From the IMG/VR virus record IMGVR_UViG_3300045973_000166, positions 1-45,047 of that record: a stretch of DNA of 45,047 nucleotides. One strand, given 5' to 3'. The notes under the pieces were generated by a model. That model saw only the letters and a list, made by a program, of their open reading frames with translations, did no database searches and was not told the DNA's origin. This document shows, piece by piece, positions 2,030 through 42,158 of this stretch. Made by a program: the position numbers and the translations under genes. Each line of letters begins with the position of its first letter. Position 1 is the first letter of the stretch. This stretch comes from a virus.

Positions 2030-5000
2030 ATGGCAAACTTCTGGGAAAAGACACCTCAGGAAAGATACGCCGAAGCAATGGCAAAGTACGGCGGACAAAA
2101 CGTGGGAGGGGTCAATCAACAGGTTGACCCCAACGATTATCAAGCGCGTTATGCGGCGGTCATGGGGACGAACTATCAGCCGACAGCCACGCCCACCATC
2201 TCCCTACAGCCCACCAACGCGCAGGAAGCCGCCCGTCGCGGTCAGCCTCCCACCACCGCATTCGACAAGGACTACTCGAAGAACGGCATCGGTGCGGCTC
2301 TCGTGGGTTCCGCCGGGGCAGGCATCGTCAACACGGGTAGGCAGGCGGCGTCCTTCATTGAGCGTGGTCTTGCCAATTCGATGGGTCAGGGCGGAGGTAG
2401 CATCACCGATGCGTTCGCGAACGCCAAGACCAAGGAAGAGGAAGACCGCCAGTACCTCAAGGACAACGGCTTCTTCAAGTACCTTGGGAAGAAATTCTCC
2501 GAGATAAACTGGGGTGAAACTGCCGGAAAGGCTGTCCTGTCACCCGGGTTGTACAACGTCGGCAAGGCGGCTCTCGACACTGGCGTCACCGATGTGAACA
2601 AATTAGTGAAACCCGTTGAGGACAAGATCAACAAGTGGGCGGACGTGGACAACGAGGGTTGGGTCGTGAAGATGGCGGCGGGTGCGTTGCAGTCTATCCC
2701 CCAGACCCTGTTGACGGCGGTCAACCCGGTGGTTGGCATCCCGATCATGTTCAACAATGCCTACCAGAACACGGCGGAGCAGTTCAAGGCGCAGGGCAGG
2801 GATATCAACGACCCTACCGTCAAGGCGAATATGCTTGGCACGTCCGTCGTAGAGGTGGCGACTGAGTACATGTTCAACTTCGCCGCAGGAATGAAGGGTG
2901 CGGCAGGCGCACTGTCCGCAATGGGCGCAAAGACCGGGGTAGCAAAGCCCCTTATTGCAGGAACGAAGGGATTCTTTGAGCAGTTCTTCAAACAGGAAGG
3001 CAAGATGATCAAGCCGACCATCGGTGCGTTCCTCGTTCATATCGCCAAACAGGGTGCGGAGGAAGGCGTGGAAGAAGTGTTCTCTGAGATCGGCGGGGGC
3101 TTGGTCGCACTTGCCACTACCGACAAGGGAAGGAAAATCATCACCCTTGGCAACACCGTAGACCCGGTAACTGGAGAAGACACGTCCGGTGCGATGACTG
3201 TAGAAAACATGGCGATGGCGTTCGGGTCAGCGTTCCTGTCGGTCGGGTTGATGGCGACCGTAAACTCCCACAAGCAGTTCGTCACTGCGAAGAAGTTCGT
3301 CACCGACAACTTCAGCGACAAGTCGATCAACGAGATTACCCAAGCGGAACTGGATGCGTTCATCGAGGCTGTCAAGACCGACACCCTGAAGAGTCCAGAA
3401 CTCCAGAAAATCGCACAGGATGGTCTGGGCAACGTCCTTAAGGATGCGGTGGCGTCCACGTTCGACGGAACCATCTACACCAACACCGAGGGCGGGGACA
3501 CGCTGACCGCACACTACGACACCAAGACCAACGAGTACGTCATGGAGTCGGCTACCCTGAAGGACATCGTCCGTCTCACCCCGGAGCAACTCGAAAAAGG
3601 CATCTCCGAGGGACGGTATCAAGCGCAGACCACCGCTCAAGCCCCACAGACGCCCGTAGAGGCTCCTGCAACCCCGGGGACAGAGAATATCACTCCTGCG
3701 ACCGCAGAGGCTCCTGCGCCCTCTAGGGGGGCTTCAGACGCAGTCCTGACCAAGAACGAGACGGGGATCTCATTCGCCACGCCAGACGGAGCATCGCACC
3801 CGGTCACCGTGACCGAGACCCCTGCGGTAGACGGCACAACGTCGAAGTCTTATTCGGCTATGCTAGTCGGCGCAAAAGGCACGTCCGACGTCGAGGCGCA
3901 CATGCTCCCCGGCGGAAAGAAGATGAGCGTGTCCGTGATGACCCCCGCGAGGGACACGACCTTCGAGGTTGACGCCAACGAGTATCTCGCCGCGCCCAAC
4001 AAGGCGATGTTCCTGAACGAGAAGTCCGATCCTGTCGGTTCCCTGTCCAGAGCCTACACCGATCACGGCGAACCCGGAATCTACGAGGCGGTCACCGCTG
4101 TCACCGACTCCGCTGTGGAAGCGCATGTGGAGACGGTCGTTGCCGAGGAAAAGGCAAAGCAAGAAGAGAAGGATGCCAAGGACGCCAAGAGTGCCAAGGA
4201 TGCCAAAGACCAAGCCGACATCAAGGAAGAGGTCGAGATCAAGAAGGCGACCAAGGGCAAGGAGTCCCGGGACATTCCTGCCGACGTGATCGAGCGCACC
4301 AAGAAGCAGAGGGAACTCGTCCGTACTGTACAGGAGCGGTCGTTCTCCAAGGAAGACATGGCGGCTCTCCGCGCCGTTGACAAGGACATGGACAAACTGG
4401 GAATGGTCGGGTGGCTCGTCCCTGTAAGCGAGGACGGAAACTCCCCGAAGATGAAGTGGATCTCCGACATGCTCAAGACCGAGACCGGGAAGCGGATCGT
4501 GTTCGTCACGGCTGTCGGTTCCCTCGAGATCAACGAGTTCGTGAGCGACTTCTCCAAGGACACAGTGTTCGTGAACATCTCCGGCAAGTCTGACAAGAGT
4601 GTCGCATGGGCAATCGGTCATGGCTTGTATCACCTGATGGTCAAGGACGGCAAGGGCGAAGTGTTCGCCGATGCTGTGCGGAAGTTCCTGCCAGAGAACG
4701 CAGTTGCAGACTACTTGGCGACCTACGACTCCATGCCTGCGTACAAGAGGCAGTTGGAAGACTCCGGCATTGCGATGGAAGAGATAATCGCCGACCATGC
4801 AGGCGAGGCGTTCGCATCCTCCAAGTTCTGGGAAGGTCTGATTGCTCCTACCGTCGGCAAACAGAAGAAGTCCCTGCGGAAGATCATCGCTGACTTCTTC
4901 GCACGGCTCAACAAGGAACCCGGCATTGCTGAGTCTGAGATCACGGCATTTACCGAGGCGTTCAACGAGTACAAGGAACCCGCCCCCGCTCCGGCAGTTG

Positions 5001-8000
5001 TTGCAAAATCCGAAACAACTGAAAAGCCAGTTGTGAGCAACAAGGTGGAACTAACCAACCCGGATGTGGTGGCAAAAATCATCAAGGGCGTCGAGTTCAC
5101 TGCGACCATGACACAGGAATACGATGCACTGAAAGCGGAGTCCCGACAGTTGGCAAGGGAACGCATTGTAGACCTGAAACCGGGCGAAAAACTTGGTCAC
5201 CCCTCTTCGTTCGAGGCGGAGGATAAGTACACCAACAGGATCTCCCCCAACCGAAAAAGAGACGAAATAGGGCATCAGTGGGACGATAGGATAATCAAGC
5301 AGTTGGCGATCTACTCCGCCCTTGTCAAACGACTGGCGGCGGACGTCGTTACCGACACAAGGCTTGGAATCGAGACCCCCGAAAACGCCCGGATGACGGA
5401 ACAGCAGATCGGCATGCTGAACAGCCGCATAAACGCCCTCGCGAAGGACTATCTGGACTTTGCCCCCGAGCCTGTTGCCAAGCCCAAGACCCCCATGCCC
5501 AAGATCCCCAAGGGTGCGGAGAACTACATCGCTACCGCCCAGATGTCTGTTCCGGGGTCAACCAAGACTCAGACCGCTTACATCATGAAACGATTCAAGA
5601 CGTACTTCATGGCGATCATGGAGTCGACAACCACGGGATCTGAGACCCGGTACAACTACAGCCAAAACGAAGGGGTCTACCGCAGGTGGAAGGGCGACCT
5701 GAATTGGATTCAGCCCAACAGCATCAAGGAGCGCGAGTCGGATGAGGTTGAGACGAAGTTCTCAATTTCCCCAAACCTGTCTGAGATCGAACAAAAGGCT
5801 ATCGACTACTTCGGCACGACATACCGCCTGTCAGAGGCGGGGTTTGTTCTGCAAGACGGAACACTGCTCGACCTGTCGGAGAAGAAGAACGGCGGTCAGC
5901 CCGGAACACGGAGTCAGGATCACCGGGAGGTGTCGGCATTGTACCCTTCCGGGACGGGGCAGACCGAGTCCTTGGACAAGTTTCTTATGGAGACGAACGC
6001 ACTCAGGATGGCTTATCTGCCAAACTATGCGCTGTTTACTGCAATGGGAAGCACCCCCATATCAGATGCCCAGAGGTCAATCATCATGAGGTCTGCGGTT
6101 CATAAGGAGTCGGTGGTATTCGACTACTACGCAACCGACATGGACTCGTCCGCAACTCAGGTGTGGGAATTCGACATGCCCTCGGTGGCGACCGTGAAAC
6201 GCATGATCGAGGAGATCAACGAGGCGAAAGCGGCGTCCGTTGTACAACCCGTTATATCTGAAGAGATCACCAACGAGCAGGCGCAAGCACTTGCCGACAT
6301 CGGGGCGCAGGTGGACGAAGCGTCCGAGTCCGTTGCTCCCACGTTGTACAGTTTCCCGTCGCTTCAGCGGTCGGATCTTGTCCTCGAGCGGGAAGCCGCA
6401 TCGATCTCGATTCAGAATGCGACAGGCGTGACCAAGGCGCAAGCGGACAAGTGGATCGAGGACGTCATGAGCGTCGCATCCATCGTCCTAGCAGGGCGAG
6501 ACCGTCTGTTCTTCGACCCGAGTCCCCATGTCAGTTTCTTCAAAACAAACGTGGAGTACTTCGGGTCTTTGGACTCGTCCACCATTTGCGCCAAGCGCAG
6601 GCTTGCGATGGGTACGTTGGACGCCATCCAGAAGAGATTCCCTACCATGCGGATAGCGTCAGAAGACCTGATGAAAGTCCGACAGATCATGCAGAGAAAA
6701 GAACTCCAGATCGCCTGCGGGATCTGCTACGTCGAGTCCACCCGCAAGGATCTGGGCAAGTATGTGGACATGTTCATCGACCTGTACAAGGAGTCGCAGA
6801 AGTCCGGTCAGCCTATGTTCAAGGCTCCTTACAAGGAGTTCGTCCCCGACCCCAAGAAGCCAGACATGAAGGAACAGCCGAGAGCCGTGCTGACGTGGGA
6901 CAAGAGCAAGGCGAAGAATAACCCCGGAAGAACTTACACCGCCGACAAGGACTTCACGCCCACCATCACGGACCTGAACACCACGGACGGGATCGAGAAC
7001 CTGCGAGACACGCACCCCGAAGTCTACGAGGCTTTTGTGGGCGTTATGAACGGTCTCAATCAGCAGAAGCCCAAACTGCTTGAAAAGCGCACCGAGTATC
7101 GGAACGAGATCTGGGATCAGTTCGACAGCATCGAGAAGGTTGAAGAGATGAATCGCAACGGCGGTATCCGCTTCAACTCGTTCTCCGACTTCGAGGTTCC
7201 ACACGCGCTCGACATGATGCAGGCAGTGATGGACATGGCGCGACGAGGGCTTAAAGGGCAGGCGTTCACCAAGGTGATCAATTTCTCGATGCTCCTTGGC
7301 GGAACCGGAGTAAAGATAAACATCGGAGTGATCCCTCTGGGACTTGGAGTGGACGCCGACGGCAACCTGATCTTCGATGACATCGAGGGGGCAAACCACA
7401 AAGAGGCGATCAGGGCGAGGGAAAAGAACCCTAAGGATGTCGGGCTGATCATGGTCGGCAAGAACGATATCCACATTCGTGCCTCGATGAAATCGGGCAT
7501 CATCGACTTCATCATTCCGTTCCACAGAAGCCAATGGTCAAAAGCACAATACGAGGCACTGGGGATCGCCGGGTATTCGGACTACACAATTTTCCAGAAC
7601 GAGTCGTATGTCGTTCCCGTTCTGAGCGAAAGCGGGAAAAAACTGCGCCCGGAGAACTTCAGACCGAATGACTACTGGGACTTCTCCTTGACCGGAGAGC
7701 AGAATGCCGACGCCTACATCGAAATGTGTACAACCGGGAATCGGATTCCCAAGTTTATCCAGTTCGCTTTCTCAGATGCGGACATTCGCAAATTCCTTTC
7801 TACCCCCGACGGGAATAAGTTCACGCTTGAGGACTTTACCGACACGAAAAAAGCGTGGAAGATGGTGAGATACCAAAAGGCAACGGTGGACAAGTTCGCC
7901 AAGTTCATGGTGATGATTAAGGCGAAAACCAACCCCGGATACTGGAAGCAACTTGTCGACTTCAAGATGTACGACAACAACGGAATCGGCTCTCCCCAAC

Positions 8001-11000
8001 AGCCAGTAGTCCCGCAGTTCGACATAGTCGAGGCAGAGCGCATGCTCGACGAATACCACGACGATCCGAACACGTTCCCCGTGGCGCAGGATGTTGTGGA
8101 CGAGTTCGCCGCATGGAAGAGCGGAACCAAGTACTCCATCAACAACGCCCTTGAATTCGGCGGAGAGGTAGCGGGACATCCCGCCTTCATGAGTCCTATG
8201 GGCAACTGGCTCGTCGATCAGGTAGACGTAAAGACCACGCCCGTTCAGTGGCTCAAGAAGTTCGCATCCGCCCCGTTCAAGTCGGAGCATGAGTTTGAGT
8301 TCCTTGGCATCAAGGACTGGATCGAGTCGCAGACGGAATCGCTGACCGGGGCGCAGATCCTCGACTACTACGAGGAACACAACGCGCTGTTCACGGAGGA
8401 GGACGATCTCGACTCGATGAGACGTCCGAGGTGGGCTACCTACTCTCCGGGGCAGGAAATCGTCAACGGGCATGAAGACCTGTTCGAGAACTACCGAATG
8501 AAGTCGGTGGTCATGGACACGGCGTCGATCCCTGCACCTTTCACCAACAACGACATGATGGCGCACAACGCATGGAAGTCCGTAATGATGTTCACCCGCA
8601 TGGAAGACGTCAAGGCGGGGGCTGTTCCCGCCTACCCCAACGGCGCGGTCTACGGCGTCGAGGTGCAGTCCGACGCGCACTCCGAGGCGCAGAAGGAAGG
8701 CGGACTGGGATACGCCAAGAAACTGATGCCGGGTGAGATCGGCAAGGCTCCCGAACTGAACCAACGTCTCGTCGCCGCTCAAGCCGCATACGACGCTGCG
8801 CACGACAGGGAGATTGCGGCGGCAGTCGAACTGACCAACATGGGCGAACGACTTGGCAGGTGGAACTCGGAAGCCAAAATACAAAAGTGGAACAGGGAGC
8901 ATGCCAAACGGAGTTACGAACTCCGGCGGGACGGATACACCAGTTTTGATTTATCTACGGACAACCGTCTAAGATCGCTTGACCTCGCAAAGGCGGTTAT
9001 AATCCCGATCCGAAACTTTGAAGACCCGACGGAAGTCTTGGAAATGCAAGACGCCCTGAAGTTCTACGCCCTCAAAACGGACGTCGAGCATCTTGAAGGC
9101 GTTGCAGGATCGTACCTCGTTGAGGTGACCGACGAGGATGGCGTGACGTCATACGAAAGCGACCAAGAGATTTTGGACGTTGTCGAAATCGGGAAACGCG
9201 CCGTGGAGTACGCCGGAATATATCGCGCCGCCAACAGGGATTCTGCGGAAGCGCGGATAAGCATGAGAGCCGCCGAAAAGGCGGTCGACAAACAGCAGAC
9301 CCCCGACCTGCCCTTCAAAAAAGACTACCCGCTCCTTGGCTTCAAGATGTGGCTCAGGGATGCTATCGCCACGGGCAAGGATGCCGTCATGTGGGCAGGT
9401 TGGATGCATGCGAAGCGGTGGATGGTCAAGGAAAACTACGCTTTCCTGCGTGTGCTTGATGTTCAAGAGGTCGAGTCCAAGTTCGGTCTCAAGATTCGCC
9501 ATTGGGATGTCGAGTACTATGGAAGATCTCCCGACGAAAGCAGTTACTCGCTCAGAACAGTAAAATTGTCTGCAAATCGTCTCGACACGGAACTTGGGAA
9601 GTGGATGTCGGACAAGGTTTTCGCTTCCAAACCCGGCGATGTCTTCTATGGTCAGGCTCCCGGTCAGACCAACGGGTTCATCCCTAACGTGTACGACGTC
9701 ACGCTCGTCAACTCCGTCAACAAGTACATCAAGAAGTGGGGTGTGAAAGCGGAGTACAAAGAGGTCGAGAACCTGCCCGGCATGCACTGGGTGGTCGAGA
9801 TCAACGACGCCATGCGCTTTGAACTGGAACAGGTTCCGCAGGTGCTGTACTCCATCACCGCCGAGCATCTGTTCAACAAGAACTTCACCCCCGAGAACTT
9901 TGAGAAGCCGACCCTCGACAACATCACGATGGCGGCGAAGTTCTATCAGGTGCAGGGACACAGGGAAACGTGGCGCAAGGTTGCCTCCATGATCCAGAGA
10001 GACCCGGCAGGGACTCGTATGGACGCCTCCGACATCACCAAGATCTCGCCCGAGATGACTGTTGCCCGAATGGTCTACATGTACATGGATCAGGTTCGCG
10101 GTCGCCATGCCGATGCGGCGCAGTGGGCATACGTCATCAACAAGGCGAACAAGGGTGGAGGTCAGGCGATTGAAGCGGTCAAGATGTTCCAAGGACTCGC
10201 TCCGGCAGGCATCCTGTCGTTCGCCCTCAAGCGCATCCAGTCGTTTCTCAAGGAAGACGATCTGAAGCGCATCGAAGCCAAAGCAGTCGAGGCGGCAGGG
10301 GTAATCACGCAAGCGGATCTCGACGCACTCCGTAAACTTTTGTCCGAAAAAGACGCAATAGTAAACGCCCTGAAGAACGAGAACTCTGCGCTCAAGAGCA
10401 AGATGACTGCGGCAGAAACCCTCGAGGAGCGCATCAAGAAGTACATGCGCGAACTGGGCGAGTTCGATGCCGACCCGGTCAAGGACTTCGTGGATATCCT
10501 GCACGGCGTGGCGACCACGGTATTTCCTGCGACCAAACTGCCGAAGACCCAAGACCCGGTGCAGTTCATGCGGTGGGTGCTGAAAAACAACGACAACCTG
10601 AACTCCCTGTGGAAGACTGCAATGGAGATGTTCAATCGGCTGTATGCCAACGATGCCGTCGGTCGTGCCGAGGTCATGGCATATTTCAACGAGTTCATCC
10701 CCGGCGGATCGAAGATCGACCCGGCAAACTACTCCGCACAGATGCTCCGCAACATCGGGCATGCGCTCGAAGCCGAGTACTCCTCCGAGTTTCACACGTT
10801 CCAGTCGATGGTCAAGCGTCTTCTGGAACTGGGCGTCACCGATAGGGATGCTATCACCCTCGCTAGACACTTCCAGAAGGCTGTAGGCGACCTTTCCCGT
10901 GAAGAGAAGGTACGGACACTCAGGAAGATCCTGCCACGTTCTGGCGAGTCTGGGGCGCGTCTGGTGATAGAGCGGATCATCAACATCTCCAACGAGCGAG

Positions 11001-13078
11001 GTCTGACATCCACGGAGATCCAAGGATACGTCGCTCACCTGCTTGGTCTGCCGAGCCTATCTCCCGAACTGGCGAAAGAACTGATGGACATGGCGCAGAA
11101 GATCGCCGACATTAACGAGGTCGCCGCAAAGGCGGGTCGGGTCCTGACCGCCGAGGAACAGCGCGAAGTGGACGTGCAGACTGCCTTGATCATGGCGAGG
11201 ATCGCAAGCCAACGCCCCGTCAACTGGACGGAGAAGGTAGACCTTATCCAGTCCATGTCGATGCTGTCGATGTTCAAGTCCTCCATCCGAAACATCCTCG
11301 GCAACACGGGCTTTGGCGTAGTGGACACGCTCAAGGACTACATGTCGGTCGCCATTGACCGTGCGACCTCTGTCTTCACCGGGCAGAAGACCATCCCGCT
11401 TCCTCAGTGGAATGCGGCGATCCACGGTGCGATCACCGGGGCCAAGCACTCCGCCCAAGATATCATGATGGGCATCGATACCTCCGTCCTCGACACCGGG
11501 TACTCCGTTGAGAAGGGCGACATCCTGAAGTCCAAACTGGGCAAGTTGATGATGAAGGTCTTCCGGTTCAAGATGTCCCTGCCCGACCGTGTGGCACAGG
11601 GTGCGTGGTACGAGTCGCACCTCAAGGGGCTGATGAAGATGAAGGGCGAGACGGAAGCCTCGCAGGACTCCATCGATGCGGCTGTCGCATTTGCCGAGTA
11701 CAAGACCTTCACCGATGACAACCCGGCGTCCACCGCCTTCGGAACGCTCCGCTCCGTCCTGAACGGCAATATCACCAAGGCAAGCAGAAGCAAGGGAAAC
11801 GGACAGATCAAGTGGGGCTTGGGTTCCATCCTGATCAAGTTCCCCAGAGTCCCCGGTGCGCTTCTGATGCGTACAATCGAGTACAGCCCGATCTCCCTTG
11901 CCCGTGCGCTCTGGACGCTTGCCAAGCCGATCTACGAGTCCAAACGGTTCGGTGGATCATACAAGGAGAACTTCGCTCCCGCCCAGAAGAAGTTCGCAAC
12001 ACAACTGGCGAACGGCATCTTCGGTACGGCGATCACCATCGGCATGGGACTCCTGCTGACAGCCCTCGGACTCATGTCGGGCAGGGAGCCTGAAGACAAG
12101 AAGAAGCGCGACGCCAACGCCGCAATGGGAATCACCGGATACCAGATGAACTGGGACGGACTGTGGCGGTTCGTGTCGTCTGGATTCAACCCGGATGCGG
12201 CGAAGATGGAGAAGGGCGACAACCTGACCACGTTCGAGTGGATGTCCCCCATGTCGCTCGGACTGGCAATCGGAGCCAACCTGTATCAGGAGACCAAGAC
12301 CCTGCAAGGCGCGGACATTGCACCGTTCGAGAAGTTCTCCCAGATCGCTCTGGTGGCATCGCTGTCCGGTCTCGAGTCCATCACCGAGATGTCCCTGATG
12401 CAGGGGATCTCGGCACTGTTCGACAACACGGGATACCGCTCGTCTATCGCCTCTGCCGACAGGGAACAGCCGTACTTCGGCGAACGCCTGATCAATGCGG
12501 CGGTCACCGTGCCTGCATCTTTCATCCCGAACGCCCTCAAGGTCACCCGGGAACTTCTCGACAACACCCGGAGGTACACCTACTCCACGAGCGCGTTGGA
12601 ATATGCCTACAACGTCATGCTCAACAAGATCCCCGAAGCCGAGAAACTCCTGCCGCCGTCTGTTGATGTGTACGGAAACCTCAAGGAGATCTATCAGGCG
12701 AACGGCAACAACTGGGGCAACGTGTTCTTCAACCCGTCGGTGGCAACCAAGTACACGCCGTCCTACGAAACCATGCTCGTGCTGAACACGATGGTCGAAA
12801 AGGCGGGGACGAAGTACGACTCCTCCAACGTGTCGCCCTCTTCCGTCAAGACCACCATCGACGTCACGGTGAACGGTGTCAAACAGCAACTCGTCCTCGA
12901 CGCCAAGGAGCGCATGGAGATGCAGGAACTGGTCGGGAAGAACGTGGTAGCCAACTTCAAGCGCATCCCGGCTTCCGCTACAGTGGAGCAAAAGGTCAAG
13001 GCGATGCAGGAGATTATGAGTCAAGTGTCAGCCGCCGCCAAGGAGTTCATGGCAAAGAAGAAACTGGGATTGGACTAA
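2030..13078 (+). CDS. Giant large polyvalent (internal virion/ejection) protein, 3682 aa
   Basis: One uninterrupted reading frame with RBS GGAGGAAACG and ATG at 2030. In order: (i) Gly/Ala-rich N-terminal ~400 residues with hydrophobic helices; (ii) Pro/Ala linkers and a Lys/Asp/Ala low-complexity stretch near 700-745; (iii) a zincin-like domain ~790-940 with HGLYH at 864-868 and EEIIAD at 917-922; (iv) a segment near 1275-1310 with the DGTLLDLS...DHR pattern typical of phage polyvalent proteins; (v) a domain with CGICYVE at 1563-1569; (vi) EVQSD at 2211-2215 and the FKMWLRDAI...KDAVMWAGW segment near 2437-2458, also familiar from polyvalent proteins; (vii) a coiled coil ~2758-2806; (viii) a C-terminal domain with a membrane segment near 3328-3352. 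Such proteins are packaged and thought to enter the host with DNA. N4 virion RNA polymerase is similar in size, but I see no polymerase motif. Confidence 0.85.
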   Translation: MANFWEKTPQERYAEAMAKYGGQNVGGVNQQVDPNDYQARYAAVMGTNYQPTATPTISLQPTNAQEAARRGQPPTTAFDKDYSKNGIGAALVGSAGAGIVNTGRQAASFIERGLANSMGQGGGSITDAFANAKTKEEEDRQYLKDNGFFKYLGKKFSEINWGETAGKAVLSPGLYNVGKAALDTGVTDVNKLVKPVEDKINKWADVDNEGWVVKMAAGALQSIPQTLLTAVNPVVGIPIMFNNAYQNTAEQFKAQGRDINDPTVKANMLGTSVVEVATEYMFNFAAGMKGAAGALSAMGAKTGVAKPLIAGTKGFFEQFFKQEGKMIKPTIGAFLVHIAKQGAEEGVEEVFSEIGGGLVALATTDKGRKIITLGNTVDPVTGEDTSGAMTVENMAMAFGSAFLSVGLMATVNSHKQFVTAKKFVTDNFSDKSINEITQAELDAFIEAVKTDTLKSPELQKIAQDGLGNVLKDAVASTFDGTIYTNTEGGDTLTAHYDTKTNEYVMESATLKDIVRLTPEQLEKGISEGRYQAQTTAQAPQTPVEAPATPGTENITPATAEAPAPSRGASDAVLTKNETGISFATPDGASHPVTVTETPAVDGTTSKSYSAMLVGAKGTSDVEAHMLPGGKKMSVSVMTPARDTTFEVDANEYLAAPNKAMFLNEKSDPVGSLSRAYTDHGEPGIYEAVTAVTDSAVEAHVETVVAEEKAKQEEKDAKDAKSAKDAKDQADIKEEVEIKKATKGKESRDIPADVIERTKKQRELVRTVQERSFSKEDMAALRAVDKDMDKLGMVGWLVPVSEDGNSPKMKWISDMLKTETGKRIVFVTAVGSLEINEFVSDFSKDTVFVNISGKSDKSVAWAIGHGLYHLMVKDGKGEVFADAVRKFLPENAVADYLATYDSMPAYKRQLEDSGIAMEEIIADHAGEAFASSKFWEGLIAPTVGKQKKSLRKIIADFFARLNKEPGIAESEITAFTEAFNEYKEPAPAPAVVAKSETTEKPVVSNKVELTNPDVVAKIIKGVEFTATMTQEYDALKAESRQLARERIVDLKPGEKLGHPSSFEAEDKYTNRISPNRKRDEIGHQWDDRIIKQLAIYSALVKRLAADVVTDTRLGIETPENARMTEQQIGMLNSRINALAKDYLDFAPEPVAKPKTPMPKIPKGAENYIATAQMSVPGSTKTQTAYIMKRFKTYFMAIMESTTTGSETRYNYSQNEGVYRRWKGDLNWIQPNSIKERESDEVETKFSISPNLSEIEQKAIDYFGTTYRLSEAGFVLQDGTLLDLSEKKNGGQPGTRSQDHREVSALYPSGTGQTESLDKFLMETNALRMAYLPNYALFTAMGSTPISDAQRSIIMRSAVHKESVVFDYYATDMDSSATQVWEFDMPSVATVKRMIEEINEAKAASVVQPVISEEITNEQAQALADIGAQVDEASESVAPTLYSFPSLQRSDLVLEREAASISIQNATGVTKAQADKWIEDVMSVASIVLAGRDRLFFDPSPHVSFFKTNVEYFGSLDSSTICAKRRLAMGTLDAIQKRFPTMRIASEDLMKVRQIMQRKELQIACGICYVESTRKDLGKYVDMFIDLYKESQKSGQPMFKAPYKEFVPDPKKPDMKEQPRAVLTWDKSKAKNNPGRTYTADKDFTPTITDLNTTDGIENLRDTHPEVYEAFVGVMNGLNQQKPKLLEKRTEYRNEIWDQFDSIEKVEEMNRNGGIRFNSFSDFEVPHALDMMQAVMDMARRGLKGQAFTKVINFSMLLGGTGVKINIGVIPLGLGVDADGNLIFDDIEGANHKEAIRAREKNPKDVGLIMVGKNDIHIRASMKSGIIDFIIPFHRSQWSKAQYEALGIAGYSDYTIFQNESYVVPVLSESGKKLRPENFRPNDYWDFSLTGEQNADAYIEMCTTGNRIPKFIQFAFSDADIRKFLSTPDGNKFTLEDFTDTKKAWKMVRYQKATVDKFAKFMVMIKAKTNPGYWKQLVDFKMYDNNGIGSPQQPVVPQFDIVEAERMLDEYHDDPNTFPVAQDVVDEFAAWKSGTKYSINNALEFGGEVAGHPAFMSPMGNWLVDQVDVKTTPVQWLKKFASAPFKSEHEFEFLGIKDWIESQTESLTGAQILDYYEEHNALFTEEDDLDSMRRPRWATYSPGQEIVNGHEDLFENYRMKSVVMDTASIPAPFTNNDMMAHNAWKSVMMFTRMEDVKAGAVPAYPNGAVYGVEVQSDAHSEAQKEGGLGYAKKLMPGEIGKAPELNQRLVAAQAAYDAAHDREIAAAVELTNMGERLGRWNSEAKIQKWNREHAKRSYELRRDGYTSFDLSTDNRLRSLDLAKAVIIPIRNFEDPTEVLEMQDALKFYALKTDVEHLEGVAGSYLVEVTDEDGVTSYESDQEILDVVEIGKRAVEYAGIYRAANRDSAEARISMRAAEKAVDKQQTPDLPFKKDYPLLGFKMWLRDAIATGKDAVMWAGWMHAKRWMVKENYAFLRVLDVQEVESKFGLKIRHWDVEYYGRSPDESSYSLRTVKLSANRLDTELGKWMSDKVFASKPGDVFYGQAPGQTNGFIPNVYDVTLVNSVNKYIKKWGVKAEYKEVENLPGMHWVVEINDAMRFELEQVPQVLYSITAEHLFNKNFTPENFEKPTLDNITMAAKFYQVQGHRETWRKVASMIQRDPAGTRMDASDITKISPEMTVARMVYMYMDQVRGRHADAAQWAYVINKANKGGGQAIEAVKMFQGLAPAGILSFALKRIQSFLKEDDLKRIEAKAVEAAGVITQADLDALRKLLSEKDAIVNALKNENSALKSKMTAAETLEERIKKYMRELGEFDADPVKDFVDILHGVATTVFPATKLPKTQDPVQFMRWVLKNNDNLNSLWKTAMEMFNRLYANDAVGRAEVMAYFNEFIPGGSKIDPANYSAQMLRNIGHALEAEYSSEFHTFQSMVKRLLELGVTDRDAITLARHFQKAVGDLSREEKVRTLRKILPRSGESGARLVIERIINISNERGLTSTEIQGYVAHLLGLPSLSPELAKELMDMAQKIADINEVAAKAGRVLTAEEQREVDVQTALIMARIASQRPVNWTEKVDLIQSMSMLSMFKSSIRNILGNTGFGVVDTLKDYMSVAIDRATSVFTGQKTIPLPQWNAAIHGAITGAKHSAQDIMMGIDTSVLDTGYSVEKGDILKSKLGKLMMKVFRFKMSLPDRVAQGAWYESHLKGLMKMKGETEASQDSIDAAVAFAEYKTFTDDNPASTAFGTLRSVLNGNITKASRSKGNGQIKWGLGSILIKFPRVPGALLMRTIEYSPISLARALWTLAKPIYESKRFGGSYKENFAPAQKKFATQLANGIFGTAITIGMGLLLTALGLMSGREPEDKKKRDANAAMGITGYQMNWDGLWRFVSSGFNPDAAKMEKGDNLTTFEWMSPMSLGLAIGANLYQETKTLQGADIAPFEKFSQIALVASLSGLESITEMSLMQGISALFDNTGYRSSIASADREQPYFGERLINAAVTVPASFIPNALKVTRELLDNTRRYTYSTSALEYAYNVMLNKIPEAEKLLPPSVDVYGNLKEIYQANGNNWGNVFFNPSVATKYTPSYETMLVLNTMVEKAGTKYDSSNVSPSSVKTTIDVTVNGVKQQLVLDAKERMEMQELVGKNVVANFKRIPASATVEQKVKAMQEIMSQVSAAAKEFMAKKKLGLD

Positions 13079-13081
13079 GGG

Positions 13082-13087
13082 TATAAT
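13082..13087 (+). promoter_or_regulatory. Possible -10 element (TATAAT) after the giant gene
   Basis: A perfect TATAAT lies in the 41-base gap between the giant gene stop and the lysis block. No convincing -35 hexamer sits 16-18 bases upstream, and no TGn extension is present. It may serve a late or middle promoter that needs a phage factor, or be chance. Similar TATRAT hexamers occur in the gaps before scaffold and after the capsid gene. Confidence 0.3.
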
Positions 13088-13119
13088 TCAGGGAAACAGA
13101 AGGCGGAGGCACATGAGTT

Positions 13120-18248: not shown

Positions 18249-19934
18249 ATGGCACTAAAACTCAAAGATCCCACCGGGATCGATGCGGACAAGTTGGACA
18301 GCCTCGACTCTACCGCCCTTCAGGCGGCGGGGAACGAACTGTCTGCGCTCCAGTCCCTTGCTGACACTGGCGGGTACATGAAGAAAACCGCAGACGGGAC
18401 ATACGCCCTCAAGACCGCCGCCGAGATTGCCACCGAGGCATCAGGTTCCATGCAGTCCGTGGACGTTGTCCTGCCCATCGGCTACATGGGCGCATGGGGA
18501 TCTGACACTCCGCCTACCGGATGGATGCTGTGCGACGGCACAGCGATCAGCAGATCGACCTATGCCGAGTTATTCGCGATCATCGGCACGGCATACGGTG
18601 TTGGCGACGGCTCGACCACGTTCAACCTGCCCAACTTAAAAGGGAAGATGGTAGTCGGAAAGGACTCCACCCAGACGGAGTTTGACACCCTTGGCGAGTC
18701 AGGCGGGGCGAAGACCGTTACGCTCGACACCACCATGATCCCCTCCCACACCCATGTGCAGGACAGTCACAACCACACCCAGAACGCGCACGGGCATACC
18801 CACTCCGCAACCACGTTCGCGCCCAGAATCATCAACTCCGGTACTGCCGGAACTGTCGGCGTACAGGGTGCATCCGCCGCCTCCAATGCCAATGCCTCCA
18901 ACGCCGCCACCACTGTCCCGACCAACTCGGACGCCACGGCTACCAACATTGCCACAACTGCTACCAATCAGGCTACTGGCGGCGGTCTGGCACATGCCAA
19001 CCTGCCCCCGTATCTTGTTGCAAACATGATCATCAAGGTCAGCAATTCGGTCGGGTCGAATCCGTTCAACTTCGGAATAGCACAGGGCAATGCGGTCAAA
19101 GTCAGTGCCGCAGGTGTCGCATCAGGGCAATATGCGCGGTTTACCTCGACCGGACTGGAGGGCAGGACTACCGCGCAGGTGTTGGGTGATATCGGAGCGC
19201 AGGCGTCAGGGACAACGATTCCTATTGATGGATTGATTTATGGTTCGGGTACATGGGAGTACGTTTCTGCCGCCGCGCCCTCTTTTGTGTTGCGTGTAAA
19301 CGCCGATATCACCGGGCTATTTTCGGCGGGAACTAGGTTGCGACTTTTGCAGACAACATATAAGTGGTTCATCGTAACGGCAATGGGCGTCTACTCGGGT
19401 GGATATACTCCTGTAACGATATATGGTGGTACGGACTATACACTCACCAATGCCGCTATAACAGATGTTAGGTATTCGCTCGAAAAGGCTCCGGCAGGAT
19501 TCCCGCTTGATCCTGCCAAATGGACAATAGAAACTGTCAATTTAACCCAAATATATCAAGCATCTCCCACTAATGGTACATGGTATAACTTGGGATCACT
19601 ATCAATCGCCATTCCGGTAGGAGCATGGAGAGTGCAATATGAGGCTTCCTTGCAAACCTTAATAGCCGCAACCGGAGGTTCGGCGGCTAAAATTACGCTG
19701 TCCACGGGCAATAACAACGAAACCGACATCCACTTTTCAGCAATAAAAAGTGGATATGGTTCAGGTGTCAATTTCTCATTGATAAGCACGATGTATCGCG
19801 AAAAACACCTCTTAATAGCCGCCGCTACGACGTACTATCTTAACGCTCAAGTCGTTGATACCAACTGTGGATATCTGGAAATTCGTGGAGATTATGCGGC
19901 AACAATCATTCGTGCGATATGTGCATACTTGTAA
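18249..19934 (+). CDS. Tail collar/fibre receptor-binding protein
   Basis: A 561-residue protein with RBS GGAGG. After the N-terminal segment shared with the preceding fibre protein, residues ~75-140 form a phage tail-collar domain (PIGYMGAW, PPTGWMLCDG, FNLPNLKGK). Next come a His-rich metal-binding-like segment near 160-180 (HTH..DSHNHTQNAHGHTH) and a Thr/Asn/Ala-rich stretch. The C-terminal ~240 residues have no recognisable fold. The DNA for that last third (about 19190-19930) is visibly AT-richer than the rest of the late region, suggesting an exchanged receptor-binding tip. Confidence 0.75.
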   Translation: MALKLKDPTGIDADKLDSLDSTALQAAGNELSALQSLADTGGYMKKTADGTYALKTAAEIATEASGSMQSVDVVLPIGYMGAWGSDTPPTGWMLCDGTAISRSTYAELFAIIGTAYGVGDGSTTFNLPNLKGKMVVGKDSTQTEFDTLGESGGAKTVTLDTTMIPSHTHVQDSHNHTQNAHGHTHSATTFAPRIINSGTAGTVGVQGASAASNANASNAATTVPTNSDATATNIATTATNQATGGGLAHANLPPYLVANMIIKVSNSVGSNPFNFGIAQGNAVKVSAAGVASGQYARFTSTGLEGRTTAQVLGDIGAQASGTTIPIDGLIYGSGTWEYVSAAAPSFVLRVNADITGLFSAGTRLRLLQTTYKWFIVTAMGVYSGGYTPVTIYGGTDYTLTNAAITDVRYSLEKAPAGFPLDPAKWTIETVNLTQIYQASPTNGTWYNLGSLSIAIPVGAWRVQYEASLQTLIAATGGSAAKITLSTGNNNETDIHFSAIKSGYGSGVNFSLISTMYREKHLLIAAATTYYLNAQVVDTNCGYLEIRGDYAATIIRAICAYL

Positions 19935-35298: not shown

Positions 35299-35988
35299 AT
35301 GAAGAGAAAAGCACCATTCATTGGCAAAATCCCTACGGAGAAGGACTGGACATTGATCCGGGACGAGTTCGTGAGGACTGATATTACTATAAAGGATTTA
35401 GCATTGAAGTATGGTCTAGGGCAGTCGGTAATGTTTGCCCGGAAGAAAAAAGAGAACTGGACTGAGGAGCGGGCGTCGTGGAGAGTTTCCATATGTGCCC
35501 AATCAGGCGAGATCATCCGGCGACAGCAGATCGAGGATCACGTCAGGGTCTACGATGCCACCAGAGAGGTTGTAGACCTGTTTGTAGCCTCTGCAAAGAG
35601 GTTCGCACAGGATCGAGACGGACTGTTCAAGCACCTCATCCAACGGGAGACATCACAGCAGGATGGGTCTGCTCGGGCGACTGAGAAGTGGGCGGAGGAG
35701 ATGACCTTCACCATGCTCAACGGCAAGAACTTTGCCGACGCCGCCAAGGGTCTGAAGGATCTCAGCCTCATTGCCCGTACTCTCGACGGCATACTGGACG
35801 CCAAGGACAGAGCCAACATCGACCTGCAACGCGACAAGTTGGAACTCGACCGCAAAGTCAGGGGTATGGACAGCGACACGGAGAGCGAGTCTGGCATCGC
35901 CTACATGCCTGTGCGGGATAATACTCTACTAGAGGGCGCACTGCCTGACCCGGGTGATTCGGTGCAGTCGGCGGGTGACGCCAAGTGA
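35299..35988 (+). CDS. terS: Terminase small subunit
   Basis: A 229-residue protein. ATG 35299 follows the extended -10 by only 6 bases and has just a weak CAGG behind it, so the mRNA may be leaderless. Residues ~12-50 (PTEKDWTLIRDEFVRTDITIKDLALKYGLGQSVMFARKKKENW) are a DNA-binding helix-turn-helix of TerS type. The middle is a helical oligomerisation region and the end is acidic. TerS recognises the packaging site and recruits TerL, encoded next with a GTGA overlap. Confidence 0.85.
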   Translation: MKRKAPFIGKIPTEKDWTLIRDEFVRTDITIKDLALKYGLGQSVMFARKKKENWTEERASWRVSICAQSGEIIRRQQIEDHVRVYDATREVVDLFVASAKRFAQDRDGLFKHLIQRETSQQDGSARATEKWAEEMTFTMLNGKNFADAAKGLKDLSLIARTLDGILDAKDRANIDLQRDKLELDRKVRGMDSDTESESGIAYMPVRDNTLLEGALPDPGDSVQSAGDAK

Positions 35989-37532
35989 TCGAGTACATCA
36001 ACGACCTGATGCTCCTGCGGTTTGCAGAGCATGATGCTCCTGCCCATCCCCACGCCCCGTATAAGGCTCCACAGCGCATTGCAGTGGTCAGGGACGCTCG
36101 TGTTGACCTACGCATCGTATGGCGTCCACAGCCCCGTCAGGAGGCATTCCTCAGGCGTCCTGAGTACGAGGTGCTGTACGGTGGTGCGGCGGGAGGTGGG
36201 AAGACGGACGCACTGCTGATGTGGCTACTCGAGGACGTCCGAATCCCGTGGTACACAGGGCTTTTCCTGCGGAAGACGTTCCCTGAGTTGGAACAGGCGA
36301 TGACCAGATCGATGGAGTTGTACCCACGCATCGTCCCCGGCGCGCGGTGGAATGACAACAAGAAGGTCTGGAGATTCCCGAGCGGCGCACGGATCTACAT
36401 GGGATCGTGTCAGCATGAGCGGGACATCCTGCGGTATCAGGGACGTGCTTTCGACAGGATCGCAATGGATGAGCAGACGCACTTCTCGTTCTACGAGTAC
36501 TCCTACATGTTCTCCCGCAATCGTCCCTCAGGCAAAGGCACGTTCGTTGCCATGAGATCGGCAAGCAACCCCGGCGGCATTGGACATGCATGGGTCAAGG
36601 GCAGGTTCATCGACAATCGCGTTCCCGGGCAGTCGTATAAGTACGAACTGTCCATCACTGATCCCAATGGCAAGTCAGTGTCCTATACGCGACACAGAGC
36701 GTTTATCCCTGCCACTGTGTTCGACAACGCGATCCTGCTCGAGAACGATCCCAACTACGTTGCGGCAATGGCAATGCTCCCTGAGGCAGAGCGCATGGCA
36801 CTGCTGTACGGCTCATGGGACAGTTTCTCTGGTCAGGCATTCCCTGAATGGCGCGACAACCCCAATGGCAGAGTCGTTCGGCAGTGGTCGCATGTGGTCG
36901 ATGACTTCACCATCCCCGTCAACTGGAAGATCTTCCGCTCGTTCGATTTTGGGTACGCAAAACCGTTCAGTTGCAACTGGTATGCTATGGACAACGACTC
37001 AAGGTTGTACAAGATCAGGGAGTTGTACGGTTGCACAACAACACCCAACACGGGCATCAGGTGGCATCCGGGCGTGATCGCCGCCAAGATCAGGGAGATG
37101 GAGCAGACGTACTACCCGGGGGCAAGGATCATGGGCGTGGCTGACCCTTCCATCTGGGATGCGTCTCGAGGCGAGTCCATTGCCGTGATGATGGAGCGAG
37201 AGGGCATCCATTGGATACCGGGCGACAACAAGAGGATACCCGGCAAACAGCAGATGCACTACCGCTTGGCGTTCGATGGCGAGGGCTACCCGATGTACTA
37301 CGTCTTCGCCTCCTGCAAGCACACAATCAGGACGATGCCCAGTCTGGTGTACGACCTGTTGGACGTCGAGGACATCGACACGGACGGAGAGGATCACATC
37401 TACGACGCAGATCGCTACCTGATGATGGAGCATCCCCTAGTGGCACGAGAGCATCATCAGCCACCGATACAGTTGTTCGACCCGCTCAACCTACATACCA
37501 AGGCGTCTGCGGTCACGTTTTTTGACATGTGA
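35985..37532 (+). CDS. terL: Terminase large subunit
   Basis: A 515-residue protein starting at GTG 35985 (overlaps terS stop). ATPase: RPQPRQEAFLRRPEYEVLYGGAAGGGKT with Walker A GGAAGGGKT near 67-75, LRKTFPEL, Walker B RIAMDEQTHF near 158-167, and the coupling SNPGG. RNase H-like nuclease: SFDFGYAKPF near 322, GVADPS near 384 and HIYDADRY near 470, giving the acidic triad. TerL pumps DNA into procapsids and cuts it. Full length and all motifs are present. Confidence 0.95.
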   Translation: MIEYINDLMLLRFAEHDAPAHPHAPYKAPQRIAVVRDARVDLRIVWRPQPRQEAFLRRPEYEVLYGGAAGGGKTDALLMWLLEDVRIPWYTGLFLRKTFPELEQAMTRSMELYPRIVPGARWNDNKKVWRFPSGARIYMGSCQHERDILRYQGRAFDRIAMDEQTHFSFYEYSYMFSRNRPSGKGTFVAMRSASNPGGIGHAWVKGRFIDNRVPGQSYKYELSITDPNGKSVSYTRHRAFIPATVFDNAILLENDPNYVAAMAMLPEAERMALLYGSWDSFSGQAFPEWRDNPNGRVVRQWSHVVDDFTIPVNWKIFRSFDFGYAKPFSCNWYAMDNDSRLYKIRELYGCTTTPNTGIRWHPGVIAAKIREMEQTYYPGARIMGVADPSIWDASRGESIAVMMEREGIHWIPGDNKRIPGKQQMHYRLAFDGEGYPMYYVFASCKHTIRTMPSLVYDLLDVEDIDTDGEDHIYDADRYLMMEHPLVAREHHQPPIQLFDPLNLHTKASAVTFFDM

Positions 37533-37552
37533 CCCATAAGGAGGACAGTGAG

Positions 37553-39478
37553 ATGGCTAAGAAGAAGACAGACATCCCCGAGATGGAGAAGGCACTGACA
37601 GCCAAGGTTGGGAAGGGGCAGGGAGCGTCGGACTCAGGCAAGAAGCGCGCCCAGACCCTGACCGACATCCTGCTCAAATACCAAGAGGGCAAGCGTCTGC
37701 ACGATCAGCGCATCGTGGAGAACGACAGGTGGTACAGGTCACAGCAGTGGTCGATCATGCGGAAGCAAGCCAACAAGGGTGAGCCTGAGCCTACGTCCGC
37801 CTACCTGTGGAACACGGTGGCAAACAGGCACGGTGACTTGATGGATGCGTTCCCGGAGCCTGTGTTCGTCGAGCGTGAACAGTCGGATGAGCAGGAAGCA
37901 AAGACGCTGTCCAAGATCGTCAAGGTCGTACTGGAACGGCAGAAATTCCACAGTGTCTACAGTCGCAACGCATGGTACAAGATCAAAGCCGGGACGTCCT
38001 GCTACGGCACGTTCTGGGATCAGAGCCTCGAGAACGGCGTGGGTGACATTGCGGTGCGGAAGATCGACGTCCTGCGTATTTTCTGGCAACCCGGCATCGA
38101 GGACGTCGAGGACAGCCCCTACCTGTTCATCCTGAGTCTTGAGGACACCGAGAAGGTCAGGAAACTGTACCCGGACTATGCCGAGGACATCAGCGAGAGC
38201 AAGGAACTGACATACGAGACCTACGAAGAGACCGATACGTTGGACACTACAGGCATGACGATGGTCATCGACAGTTATCGCAAGGAATGGCAACCGGATG
38301 GCAAGACTATCCTGCATCTGGACAAGATCTGCTCCGGCGTGATCGTGGACAGAAGCGTGTGGAAAGAGGGCGGGGAGAAGGGGCTGTACACCCACGGCTG
38401 TTACCCGGTCACGTTCGACGTCATGTTCCCGGAGGAGCATTCGATTCTGGGCTTCGGTCTGGTGGACGTGATCAAAAGCCCTCAGATGTACATCGACAAA
38501 CTCGACCAGATCCTGACCCGCAACGCAATGGTAGCAGGCAAGTTCAGGTATCTGGTGAAGAAGAGCGGTGGTATCAACGTCGAGGATTTGATGGATCTGT
38601 CCAAGGACGTCGTGCAGTGCGAAGGCAATGTGCGTGAGGGCGAAGACTACGCCGCATTGCAGGCGAGTGCGTTGCCTGCGTCCGTGGTTGCCCACCGGGA
38701 TGCCAAGATCGCGGAACTCAAAGAGGTGTCCGGTGCTAACGACTTCAACCGGGGAAGCGCAGGCAATGGCGTCACTGCGGCAAGCGCGATCATGGCGTTG
38801 CAGGAGGCAGGGAACAAACTGTCGAGGGCAATGGTCACCGGGACGTATGAGGCATATGCCCGTATCTGCTATCTAATCATGGAGTTGATCGCACAGCACT
38901 ACGACGATCCCCGCAAGTTCCGCATAACCAACGAGGAGGGGGAGACAGAGTACACGTCGTACAGCAACGCAGGACTGCAACCACAGCCCATCATCACGGG
39001 CAATGAGGTGGTTGATGCCATGCCTGATCAGCAGATGCGTAAGCCCATCCTAGACGTGTCTGTCCATGCTGAGAAGCACAGCCCATATGCGGCTCTGGCA
39101 CAGAATGAGATGGCAAAGGAACTGTTCGCGGCAGGCATGTTCTCACCCGAGATGGCTCCTGCGGCGATTATTGCCCTGAACATGATGTCATTCGATGGTA
39201 AGGACAAGATCGTAGCCGCCGTCCAGAAGGGCTATGCCGATGCGGTTGCCATGCAGAACGCCCAGATCGAGGCGCAGAAGGAAACGGCACAGGATCAGGA
39301 GATCGTGCAGAAGATGAATCAGGTCATCATGGGTCTAGGCGGAGGCGACATGCTCCGTGGAGCCAATATCACGGCAGGAGGGGCGCAACAGCCCCAACAG
39401 GGACAGCAACCGCAACAGCAGGCACAGGTAGCCCCGAAGGCGGCACAGCCCCAGAGGATACAAACGGGAGGAATGTAA
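37553..39478 (+). CDS. Portal protein
   Basis: A 641-residue protein, RBS AAGGAGGACAGTGAG and ATG 37553. Its place after terL, N-terminal DILLKYQEGKRLHDQRIVENDRWYRSQQW and DAFPEPVFVER, the long helical stem region (VDVIKSPQMYIDKLDQIL), and a disordered Gln-rich C-terminus (QPQQGQQPQQQAQ) match the large portals of short-tailed phages. Twelve copies form the DNA channel at one capsid vertex and dock the terminase, then the connector. Confidence 0.85.
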   Translation: MAKKKTDIPEMEKALTAKVGKGQGASDSGKKRAQTLTDILLKYQEGKRLHDQRIVENDRWYRSQQWSIMRKQANKGEPEPTSAYLWNTVANRHGDLMDAFPEPVFVEREQSDEQEAKTLSKIVKVVLERQKFHSVYSRNAWYKIKAGTSCYGTFWDQSLENGVGDIAVRKIDVLRIFWQPGIEDVEDSPYLFILSLEDTEKVRKLYPDYAEDISESKELTYETYEETDTLDTTGMTMVIDSYRKEWQPDGKTILHLDKICSGVIVDRSVWKEGGEKGLYTHGCYPVTFDVMFPEEHSILGFGLVDVIKSPQMYIDKLDQILTRNAMVAGKFRYLVKKSGGINVEDLMDLSKDVVQCEGNVREGEDYAALQASALPASVVAHRDAKIAELKEVSGANDFNRGSAGNGVTAASAIMALQEAGNKLSRAMVTGTYEAYARICYLIMELIAQHYDDPRKFRITNEEGETEYTSYSNAGLQPQPIITGNEVVDAMPDQQMRKPILDVSVHAEKHSPYAALAQNEMAKELFAAGMFSPEMAPAAIIALNMMSFDGKDKIVAAVQKGYADAVAMQNAQIEAQKETAQDQEIVQKMNQVIMGLGGGDMLRGANITAGGAQQPQQGQQPQQQAQVAPKAAQPQRIQTGGM

Positions 39479-40874: not shown

Positions 40875-42158
40875 ATGAAGTTTCAGAAGTTCATGCTCAT
40901 CCCCGCACTTCTCCACGTCTTCCCCCCGGACACGAACCTGAACGTCACGACCGACGGCGGGATGTCCGTAGAAATGAAGACGTTTTACGACAAAAACCTG
41001 CTGAAGAACGCCTTCCCCAAACTGATCCACAACAAGTTCGGTCAGAAGCGTCCGATCCCGGCGGGTGGCGGAAAGATCATCGAGTTCCGCAAGTTCACTC
41101 CGCTTGCCAAGGCTCTCGACCCACTGACCGAGGGCGTTACGCCGATGGGGCAGAAGTTGGCGGCGACCTCCATCAACGCCACCATCGCCCAGTACGGCGC
41201 ATACCTGACCTTCTCTGACGTCCTGCGTGTGACCACCATAGATCCGGCGTTGGTCGAAGGCACAAGGATGCTCGGTCATCAGGCAGGCGAGACCCTCGAC
41301 ACCATCACCCGTGAAGTCTTGAACGGCGGAAGCACCGTCATGTACGGCGACGGAACCGTCCTCAACCGCGCCTCGCTCGTGGGTCAGGACGGAACGTACC
41401 TGAACAACGACTACTTCGGCGCAGAGACCATCCGTCGGGCGTTGCTCACCCTCCGCATCAACAAGGCACAGCCTGCCGAGGGCGGCGACTATGTCTGCAT
41501 CATCCACCCCGCGCTTGCCTACTCCCTGAAGCACGACAGCGAGTGGATCGAAGCGAATAAGTACAACAACGCCGACAAGATCTTCGACGGCGAGATCGGT
41601 CGCTATGACGGATGCAGGTTCTACGAGTCCACCGAAGCCAAGGTCTTCGCGGCTCCGTTCCTGATCGCCTCGTCCAAGACCCTCACGGAAGCCTCCCTCA
41701 ACACCAAGACCTTCACCATCGACGAGGCTCTGACTGCGGGTCAGGCGACCGCGCTTGTCGGACGTAAAGTCTCGATCAAGGGCGTCCGTTACACCATCGC
41801 CTCCGCTGCCGCAGGTTCCGCCGGAGCCGCGACCTTCACCGTCACCGAGAGCGTCACCGGATCTCCCGCAGACGGCGAGATCGTATACCCTGCCGACATG
41901 GGCGCAAACCTCGTCGAGATGCCCCTCAACGGCGTGGACGTCGCCACGGCACTGTTCTTCGGTGCGGACGCATACGGCGTCACCGAGATCAGCGGACTGG
42001 GTCTGACGACCATCGTGAAGCCTCTGGGCGCGGGCGATGACCCGTTGAACCAGAGATCCACGGCGGGTTGGAAAGCCACCCACGTCGCAGTGCGTCTCTC
42101 CGAACTCTGGATGGTTCGGGTCGAGGTCGCCATCCCTTACACTCTGGGCGCGAACTGA
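40875..42158 (+). CDS. Major capsid protein, N4-gp56 family
   Basis: A 427-residue protein with a strong RBS (AAAGGAGACC). The family signature is clear: MKTFYDKNLLKNAFPKLIH, FGQKRPIPAGGGKIIEFRKF, LAKALDPLTEGVTP, INATIAQYGAYLTFSDVL, and LGHQAGETLDTITREVL. A C-terminal insert (~270-330) has a beta-rich, Ala/Gly-rich composition. Such proteins have the HK97-like fold and are used by N4 and many other short-tailed phages. A hairpin follows the gene. Confidence 0.93.
   Translation: MKFQKFMLIPALLHVFPPDTNLNVTTDGGMSVEMKTFYDKNLLKNAFPKLIHNKFGQKRPIPAGGGKIIEFRKFTPLAKALDPLTEGVTPMGQKLAATSINATIAQYGAYLTFSDVLRVTTIDPALVEGTRMLGHQAGETLDTITREVLNGGSTVMYGDGTVLNRASLVGQDGTYLNNDYFGAETIRRALLTLRINKAQPAEGGDYVCIIHPALAYSLKHDSEWIEANKYNNADKIFDGEIGRYDGCRFYESTEAKVFAAPFLIASSKTLTEASLNTKTFTIDEALTAGQATALVGRKVSIKGVRYTIASAAAGSAGAATFTVTESVTGSPADGEIVYPADMGANLVEMPLNGVDVATALFFGADAYGVTEISGLGLTTIVKPLGAGDDPLNQRSTAGWKATHVAVRLSELWMVRVEVAIPYTLGAN

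Follow-up and report, generated by a model that had tools for sequence, protein, structure and literature searches.

A giant polyvalent-type phage protein with a predicted radical-SAM-like domain and an internal-virion-protein-type C-terminal module

Introduction

Radical S-adenosylmethionine (SAM) enzymes carry out hard chemistry with a fragile iron–sulphur cluster and work without oxygen. Their cluster cysteines are usually, though not universally, spaced CxxxCxxC, ThiC and PhnJ being exceptions. These enzymes are already known and so, separately, are the polyvalent proteins of phages. We found no radical SAM enzyme in a polyvalent protein in the open literature, preprints and supplements lying outside the scope of the search. 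The paper that founded the polyvalent class (Iyer et al. 2017, PMC5512222) does not use the term 'radical SAM' anywhere in its main text, and papers that contain both this term and 'polyvalent protein' use the two, in the parts available, in unrelated passages.

Two further systems are close to the protein described here. The virion RNA polymerase (vRNAP) of phage N4 is about 3,500 residues long, and radical SAM figures in the accessible part of the N4 paper only as a class that shares HExxH, not as a domain (PMC12633501). The gp16 proteins are described, in the accessible part of a review, as components of the virion; they refold and traverse the inner membrane, with one domain on the cytoplasmic side (PMC8954989). 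In this work, we analysed a giant open reading frame (ORF) in a viral genome of 45,047 bases, the whole of which is called the window below, and compared its product with these systems.

Results

The genome and the giant ORF

The giant ORF and the structural genes of the window are as follows.

2030..13078, + strand: giant polyvalent protein ORF (ATG start, 3682 aa, 0 internal stops)
18249..19934, + strand: tail fibre or collar protein, downstream of the giant (PHROG 9116, E 6e-43)
35985..37532, + strand: terminase large subunit (PHROG 979, E 6e-51)
37529..39478, + strand: P22-type portal protein (PHROG 156, E 4e-68; PF16510, E 7e-20)
40875..42158, + strand: major head protein (PHROG 1357, E 3e-68)
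43359..44522, + strand: possible internal virion protein (PHROG 511, E 5e-7 over 87 residues)

The giant ORF occupies 11,049 of the 45,047 bases (24.5%) in one uninterrupted frame, as stated by a first-pass annotation, which had assigned a quarter of the genome to a single protein of 3682 residues. Its GC content is even (0.55–0.58 in 2.5-kb steps) and similar-sized homologous giant ORFs are present in independent contigs, indicating that it is neither a chance frame nor a chimera. The two ends of the window are near-identical over 121 bp (1 mismatch), and the genome is therefore probably complete, either terminally redundant or circular.

The terminase, P22-type portal, major head and tail-fibre genes, together with a peptidase/endolysin-like protein found by profile search, identify a short-tailed phage. 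Read across the genome ends, the gene for the possible internal virion protein precedes the giant. Replication proteins (DnaB-like, Phage_rep_org_N) are encoded on the minus strand. This strand also encodes a metallo-beta-lactamase-fold protein (26863-27618; PF12706, E 2e-10) with a weak match to Anti-Pycsar Apyc1 (7e-4, below cut-off), which by its sequence is possibly a nuclease or an anti-defence phosphodiesterase, and an SbcC/SMC-like ATPase (28701-30698; PHROG 77, E 1e-46).

Segments whose partners vary from one relative to another

Searches of Pfam, PHROGs and NCBIfam with the whole giant and with its segments gave sub-threshold matches only. Those to Deltameth_res and DAHL were taken as chance; the former overlies the sole hydrophobic stretch. 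A PDB sequence search with the giant (P0001) returned nothing.

With the whole giant as query, IMG/VR yielded 10 loci, all of which match inside residues ~1383-2040 (33-42% identity), a region that we refer to as the core. The ORFs of these loci range from 1963 to 6957 residues, some being interrupted by contig ends. All 10 pattern matches of this whole-protein query encode core relatives, and an alignment-based scan found core relatives in 64 of 110 pattern matches from IMG/VR and in 3 of 42 from bacterial genomes.

Outside the core, the giants differ from one another. MuF_C is found in L001, a C5 DNA methylase in L002, ART-PolyVal in the core-bearing giants L004, L005 and L009, LPD23 in L009 (and, slightly below the cut-off, in L004), and LPD3, in a later scan, in L014. 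The segments of the giant itself have different partners in different relatives, which makes it a large protein of several unrelated domains and bears out the mosaic, polyvalent-type giant that had been proposed from the letters alone. Judged by sequence, its build is that of the polyvalent proteins as described in the available text of Iyer et al. (2017, PMC5512222). It is a giant mosaic ORF with a zincin-like segment and predicted delivery with the DNA, and its core-sharing relatives bear ART-PolyVal, LPD23, LPD3, MuF_C and a DNA methylase. Unlike the proteins described there, it has a degenerate zincin and a radical-SAM-like core, and the named polyvalent domains, present in the homologous giants, do not reach the Pfam cut-off in it, so that of the described set it shows a degenerate zincin motif only.

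Two of the relatives deserve mention in their own right. In L002, the C5 cytosine methylase (residues 598-894) lies C-terminal of the core in the same giant ORF, a fusion that is possibly a DNA-modification pairing. In L010, an 81-kb viral contig, nt 2-20872 encode 6957 or more residues in one ORF, which carries the core and, twice, the DGTLLDLS domain described below.

Predicted structure of the core

The features of the core are as follows.

6317..8149, + strand: radical-SAM-like domain (residues 1430-2040, with CGICYVE), with evidence from homologues, alignment, AlphaFold model and stand-alone relatives
6587..6589, + strand: Cys1520, first proposed cluster ligand, following a predicted strand (invariant, 59/59 rows)
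6590..6715, + strand: 42-residue insertion separating Cys1520 from Cys1563, mainly helical in the AlphaFold2 secondary structure
6716..6727, + strand: CGIC, with Cys1563 and Cys1566 as second and third proposed cluster ligands (invariant, 59/59 rows)

The AlphaFold2 model of residues 1420-2060 is a confident barrel-type enzyme fold (pLDDT 85, pTM 0.84). A stand-alone homologue, L151, was modelled as well (pLDDT 73). Plain Foldseek searches of the PDB with either model gave no match at E 0.001 or better, and their best ranks were other TIM-type barrels. Against a viral library, there was one strong match, phage protein A0A6J7VNV5_2 (5e-18).

When Foldseek chains (the top 1000 for the core model) were re-aligned with VIA-align, radical SAM enzymes occupied all of rows 1-20 for the core model, and rows 1-37 and 45 of 50 rows for the L151 model, with enzyme classes in both lists presumed from entry titles. 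The core aligned best with spore photoproduct lyase (Z 8.5 over 229 aligned residues, rmsd 4.2), and L151 with QueE (Z 8.7), both Z values lying near the level that the tool calls common for unmatched models. For the core, these were followed by QueE (Z 7.6), PFL-AE (7.5) and viperin (6.8), with anSME, TYW1, GDGT-MAS, LIAS and NifB also among rows 1-20, and the first fold other than radical SAM appeared at Z 4.9. For L151, viperin (7.7) and lysine aminomutase (7.5) came next. The predicted fold is thus a radical-SAM-type (beta/alpha) barrel, with a plain Foldseek similarity that is not significant. A single repeated fold with no enzyme would have spoken against the first-pass annotation; the model of residues 1420-2060 gives a radical-SAM-matching barrel instead.

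Conserved residues of the core

Alignment A2 of the core has 59 rows, namely the window and 58 of the 77 loci; L076, L077, matches of fewer than 350 model positions and near-identical copies were left out. Core residue numbers are the A2 column plus 1419. In the AlphaFold2 model, Cys1520 lies 6 residues past the strand at domain residues 92-95, and the core thus has three cysteines after the first strand, as radical SAM enzymes do, with cluster binding by these residues being predicted. The similarity to the superfamily therefore consists, in the giant, of a partial barrel and three invariant cysteines in the modelled core and, in the stand-alone homologues, of a strand motif VNxSxD that aligns with VNISLD. 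Unlike the superfamily, the core has a long insertion between the first and second cysteines and is part of a giant phage protein. In place of the canonical CxxxCxxC, the spacing is C-x42-CxxC in the giant and C-x8-CxxC in the stand-alone homologues, and we therefore use the wording 'radical-SAM-like' rather than that of a proven member.

Stand-alone homologues link the core to radical SAM enzymes

Since a Z value near 8 can reflect a common arrangement, independent support was sought in the sequences. The giant core itself scores only 2.6% against a PF04055 radical SAM profile, and the sequence case consequently runs through three small stand-alone homologues. One is WPA89565.1 of the Moorella phage MTATph1 (L078:3965-4660), a protein of 231 residues whose resemblance to the core reaches 98.3% in hhalign and E 0.3 in tblastn; the other two come from bacterial genomes. 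The profile of all three, A3, matches A2 at 99.4% in hhalign, and a search with A3 picks up a polyvalent copy in genome G003 (E 9e-9).

Against the same profile of 30 PF04055 domains, A3 scores 34.4 (59%), with the cysteine triads in register and VNVSVD placed on VNISLD; the maximum among 100 column shuffles was 21.4, and the reversed alignment scored 26.6. In NCBIfam, the Moorella protein matches radical SAM models only (StsB 0.001, viperin 0.001) and the second homologue viperin only (0.004), all far below the curated cut-offs; the third has no NCBIfam match. Pfam radical SAM models match neither the giant nor any relative scanned, and PDB sequence searches with P0002 and with profiles A1 and A3 gave chance-level matches only.

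The cysteine spacing also forms a series. L151, encoded in a 200-kb viral contig, has C-x8-CxxC, and the polyvalent L152 has an equally short spacing; the polyvalent L153 and L154 have a longer insertion, and the same scan gave two proteins like that of the window. From L151 through L152 and L153/L154 to the giant, the spacing grows from C-x8-CxxC to C-x42-CxxC.

Two other identities were tried and rejected. A HisF-type barrel, which as the control of the PF04055 comparison gave 0.1%, reaches 0.1-0.3% overall. A bridge through DUF5131/GP88-type proteins reaches 0.6% at most in hhalign with A3 or the core, the PF17338 search having matched in 4 of 199 genomes.

WPA89565.1 is encoded three genes downstream of an integrase and has a Cys-rich tail, which, by its sequence, may hold an auxiliary cluster.

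Is the core an active enzyme?

Taking the model and the profile comparisons together, the core is very probably radical-SAM-like in identity, with a putative catalytic activity. Against the radical SAM reading stand the unusual spacing, the Foldseek searches, the Pfam searches and the low score of the core against the profile. We consider it unlikely that the core keeps a radical-SAM-type fold with zinc or only a structural cluster bound to it and, without radical chemistry, contributes to the ejection apparatus as a scaffold or by binding nucleic acid. The long insertion between the cysteines would suit such a role, as would a fourth, nearly invariant cysteine (domain residue 481, aligned with Cys214 of L151), which might be the fourth ligand of a Cys4 site or belong to an auxiliary cluster; the degenerate zincin of the same giant, moreover, indicates that enzyme decay does occur here. 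However, the further invariant polar residues of the core (D1515, S1717, S1719, D1720, K1748, K1762, N1764 and H1832) are what an active site would lead one to expect, and the radical SAM enzymes that the re-alignments retrieved are catalytically active.

Other segments of the giant

Three further segments lie on either side of the core.

4247..5059, + strand: degenerate zincin-like region (residues 740-1010), with HGLYH at 4619-4633 in place of HExxH
5762..6103, + strand: DGTLLDLS...DHR domain (residues 1245-1358; iterated HMM, 8/64 proteins, the giant included)
8486..9853, + strand: EVQSD domain (residues ~2153-2608, motif at 2211), weakly similar, in collinear order, to the EIQSD domain of L014

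The motifs listed in the first-pass annotation were all located: HGLYH at residue 864, DGTLLDLS...DHR at 1245-1358, CGIC at 1563-1566 and EVQSD at 2211. The zincin is degenerate, as it had been called, HGLYH having replaced HExxH with loss of the catalytic glutamate; EEIIAD is kept ~53 residues downstream. In 31 of 63 core-bearing giants, an HExxH and an E..AD-type motif are kept upstream of the core. The zincin region of the giant has no significant profile match in the other giants.

The segment HMMs were compared across 64 proteins, 63 of which bear the core because the loci were fetched for it, a proportion that is not a prevalence. Residues 1262-1327 of the DGTLLDLS domain are 43.5% identical to part of a giant ORF of the Rhodobacteraceae phage OP947163. 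LPD23 was rejected as the identity of this domain, since its HMM finds no match in the stretches that Pfam assigns to LPD23 in L004 and L009. The EVQSD domain is probably, by sequence, a diverged version of a domain that is clearer in L014 (best piece E 0.007, one pair). The EIQSD domain of L014 finds only itself among the IMG/VR matches and, elsewhere, one cyanophage record. In IMG/VR, no relatives of the EVQSD and zincin regions were confirmed, and none of P0002 were found.

Iterated searches among the 64 proteins gave no match for residues 1-740 or 2680-3010; short windows of residues 401-650 match L030 (E 6e-5) and L049 (4e-4). The N-terminus had been described as hydrophobic, a property that is weak, since its Kyte–Doolittle value peaks at 1.47 (19-residue window, residues 394-412), below 1.5. 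The suggestion that the giant holds several anti-defence or takeover activities fared less well: we identified one probably active, putative enzyme domain next to a zincin that has lost its glutamate, and found no evidence specifically for anti-defence in the giant.

The C-terminal module and probable delivery of the giant

Two features mark the C-terminal part.

11105..12679, + strand: C-terminal module (residues ~3026-3550), common to podovirus internal-virion-protein-type proteins
12005..12061, + strand: strongly hydrophobic segment (residues 3326-3344), the sole segment of the giant above Kyte–Doolittle 1.5

The module is matched pairwise in L005 (4e-25) and L008 (2e-17), and its HMM is found in 16 of 63 core-bearing giants, the giant of the window included. 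Outside these, with Z set to 1e6 for the E-values, the HMM matches podovirus MW202801 (1e-19), gp34 of CRP-403, named 'internal virion protein D' (6e-13), and gp34 of CRP-118 (4e-11), the last two being Roseobacter phages and CRP-403 a marine podovirus. Approximately 400 residues of the module align with gp34 of each of the latter two phages, and the giant is three times as long as these proteins. In CRP-403, the gene for internal virion protein D sits between the tail-tube and tail-fibre genes, as does T7 gene 16; the giant likewise lies in a structural block before the fibre gene, so that it resembles the internal virion protein D type (T7 gp16) in position. In sequence, no similarity to either T7 gp16 or P22 gp16 was detected: with these two, the module HMM gives no hmmsearch match and 0.2% each in hhalign. 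The C-terminal module and the gene order suggest that the giant is an ejected virion protein, and they fit the delivery with the DNA that the first-pass annotation had assumed, packaging being an inferred step.

It is improbable, to much the same degree as a core without radical chemistry, that the giant is made early or late in the cell as a multi-domain regulator outside the virion, without being ejected. The lack of similarity between its C-terminus and the two gp16 proteins would agree with such a regulator. Against it speak the module shared with internal virion protein D in a T7-like gene position, the plus-strand block in which the giant lies with lysis-type and tail-fibre genes, and the giant L044, which ends in ~100 residues common to podovirus structural proteins. 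In some relatives, moreover, head and packaging genes like those of the window lie near the giants.

The end of L044 (residues 3224-4151, nt 11001-13784) is 46-58% identical to podovirus proteins over its last ~100 residues. Its partners are structural or hypothetical proteins of the Gram-negative podoviruses SPN1S, CVT22 and Klyazma, which makes it a striking case of exchange between distant phages. For the giant of the window, comparison of its last 130 residues with this end revealed no match.

The giant resembles the N4 vRNAP, as described in the accessible part of the N4 paper, in size and expected ejection, and an HExxH-type segment of that enzyme corresponds to a degenerate one here (PMC12633501). 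The observation in the first-pass annotation that the giant has the size of the N4 enzyme without its polymerase motifs agrees with our searches of Pfam, PHROGs, NCBIfam and PDB sequences, in which no polymerase family was found in the giant, and the model covers residues 1420-2060. That the giant is an N4-type polymerase too divergent for profiles is very hard to credit despite the similar length and virion-type C-terminus, given these searches and the different fold predicted for its best-conserved segment.

Discussion

We regard it as somewhat more probable than not that the giant is an ejection protein borne in the virion of a podovirus with a P22-type portal, and that it also carries a radical SAM enzyme. 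On this explanation, the giant would be packaged and enter the cell together with the DNA, and its C-terminal module would anchor or thread it at the membrane during DNA entry. By analogy with gp16, an enzyme fused to a gp16-like module would reach the cytoplasm first. The degenerate zincin suggests that this domain does not cleave the giant, which may act whole or be processed by another protease. The three core cysteines would hold a [4Fe-4S] cluster that splits S-adenosylmethionine, and the resulting radical would modify a nucleic acid, a nucleotide or a host protein in the cytoplasm within the first minutes of infection. The enzymes nearest in fold have nucleotides, RNA, DNA and peptides as their substrates, and this analogy favours a nucleic acid or a nucleotide only slightly.

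In a sample of one phylum, the domain occurs in 3 of 299 bacterial genomes, one of them the centre genome, picked for the domain, and two with stand-alone forms; the stand-alone profile matches in 4 of 398 bacterial genomes, again including the centre genome, chosen for the domain. Named matches of the core family are Clostridia MAGs and a Moorella phage, which agrees with an oxygen-sensitive cluster. It would be surprising for a virion to contain a radical SAM enzyme, and this would point to hosts that live anaerobically. The small stand-alone versions of the family can be expressed and assayed directly, making the question testable.

We see an about even chance that a large podovirus lineage carries a radical SAM enzyme in the virion, fused to an ejection protein and injected with the DNA, so that radical chemistry precedes phage gene expression. 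If true, this chemistry might act, for instance, on nucleotides, tRNA or DNA, as that of viperin, QueE, RlmN and spore photoproduct lyase does, and would bring to the ejected effectors of phages a catalytic class that is new among them and requires an oxygen-free host.
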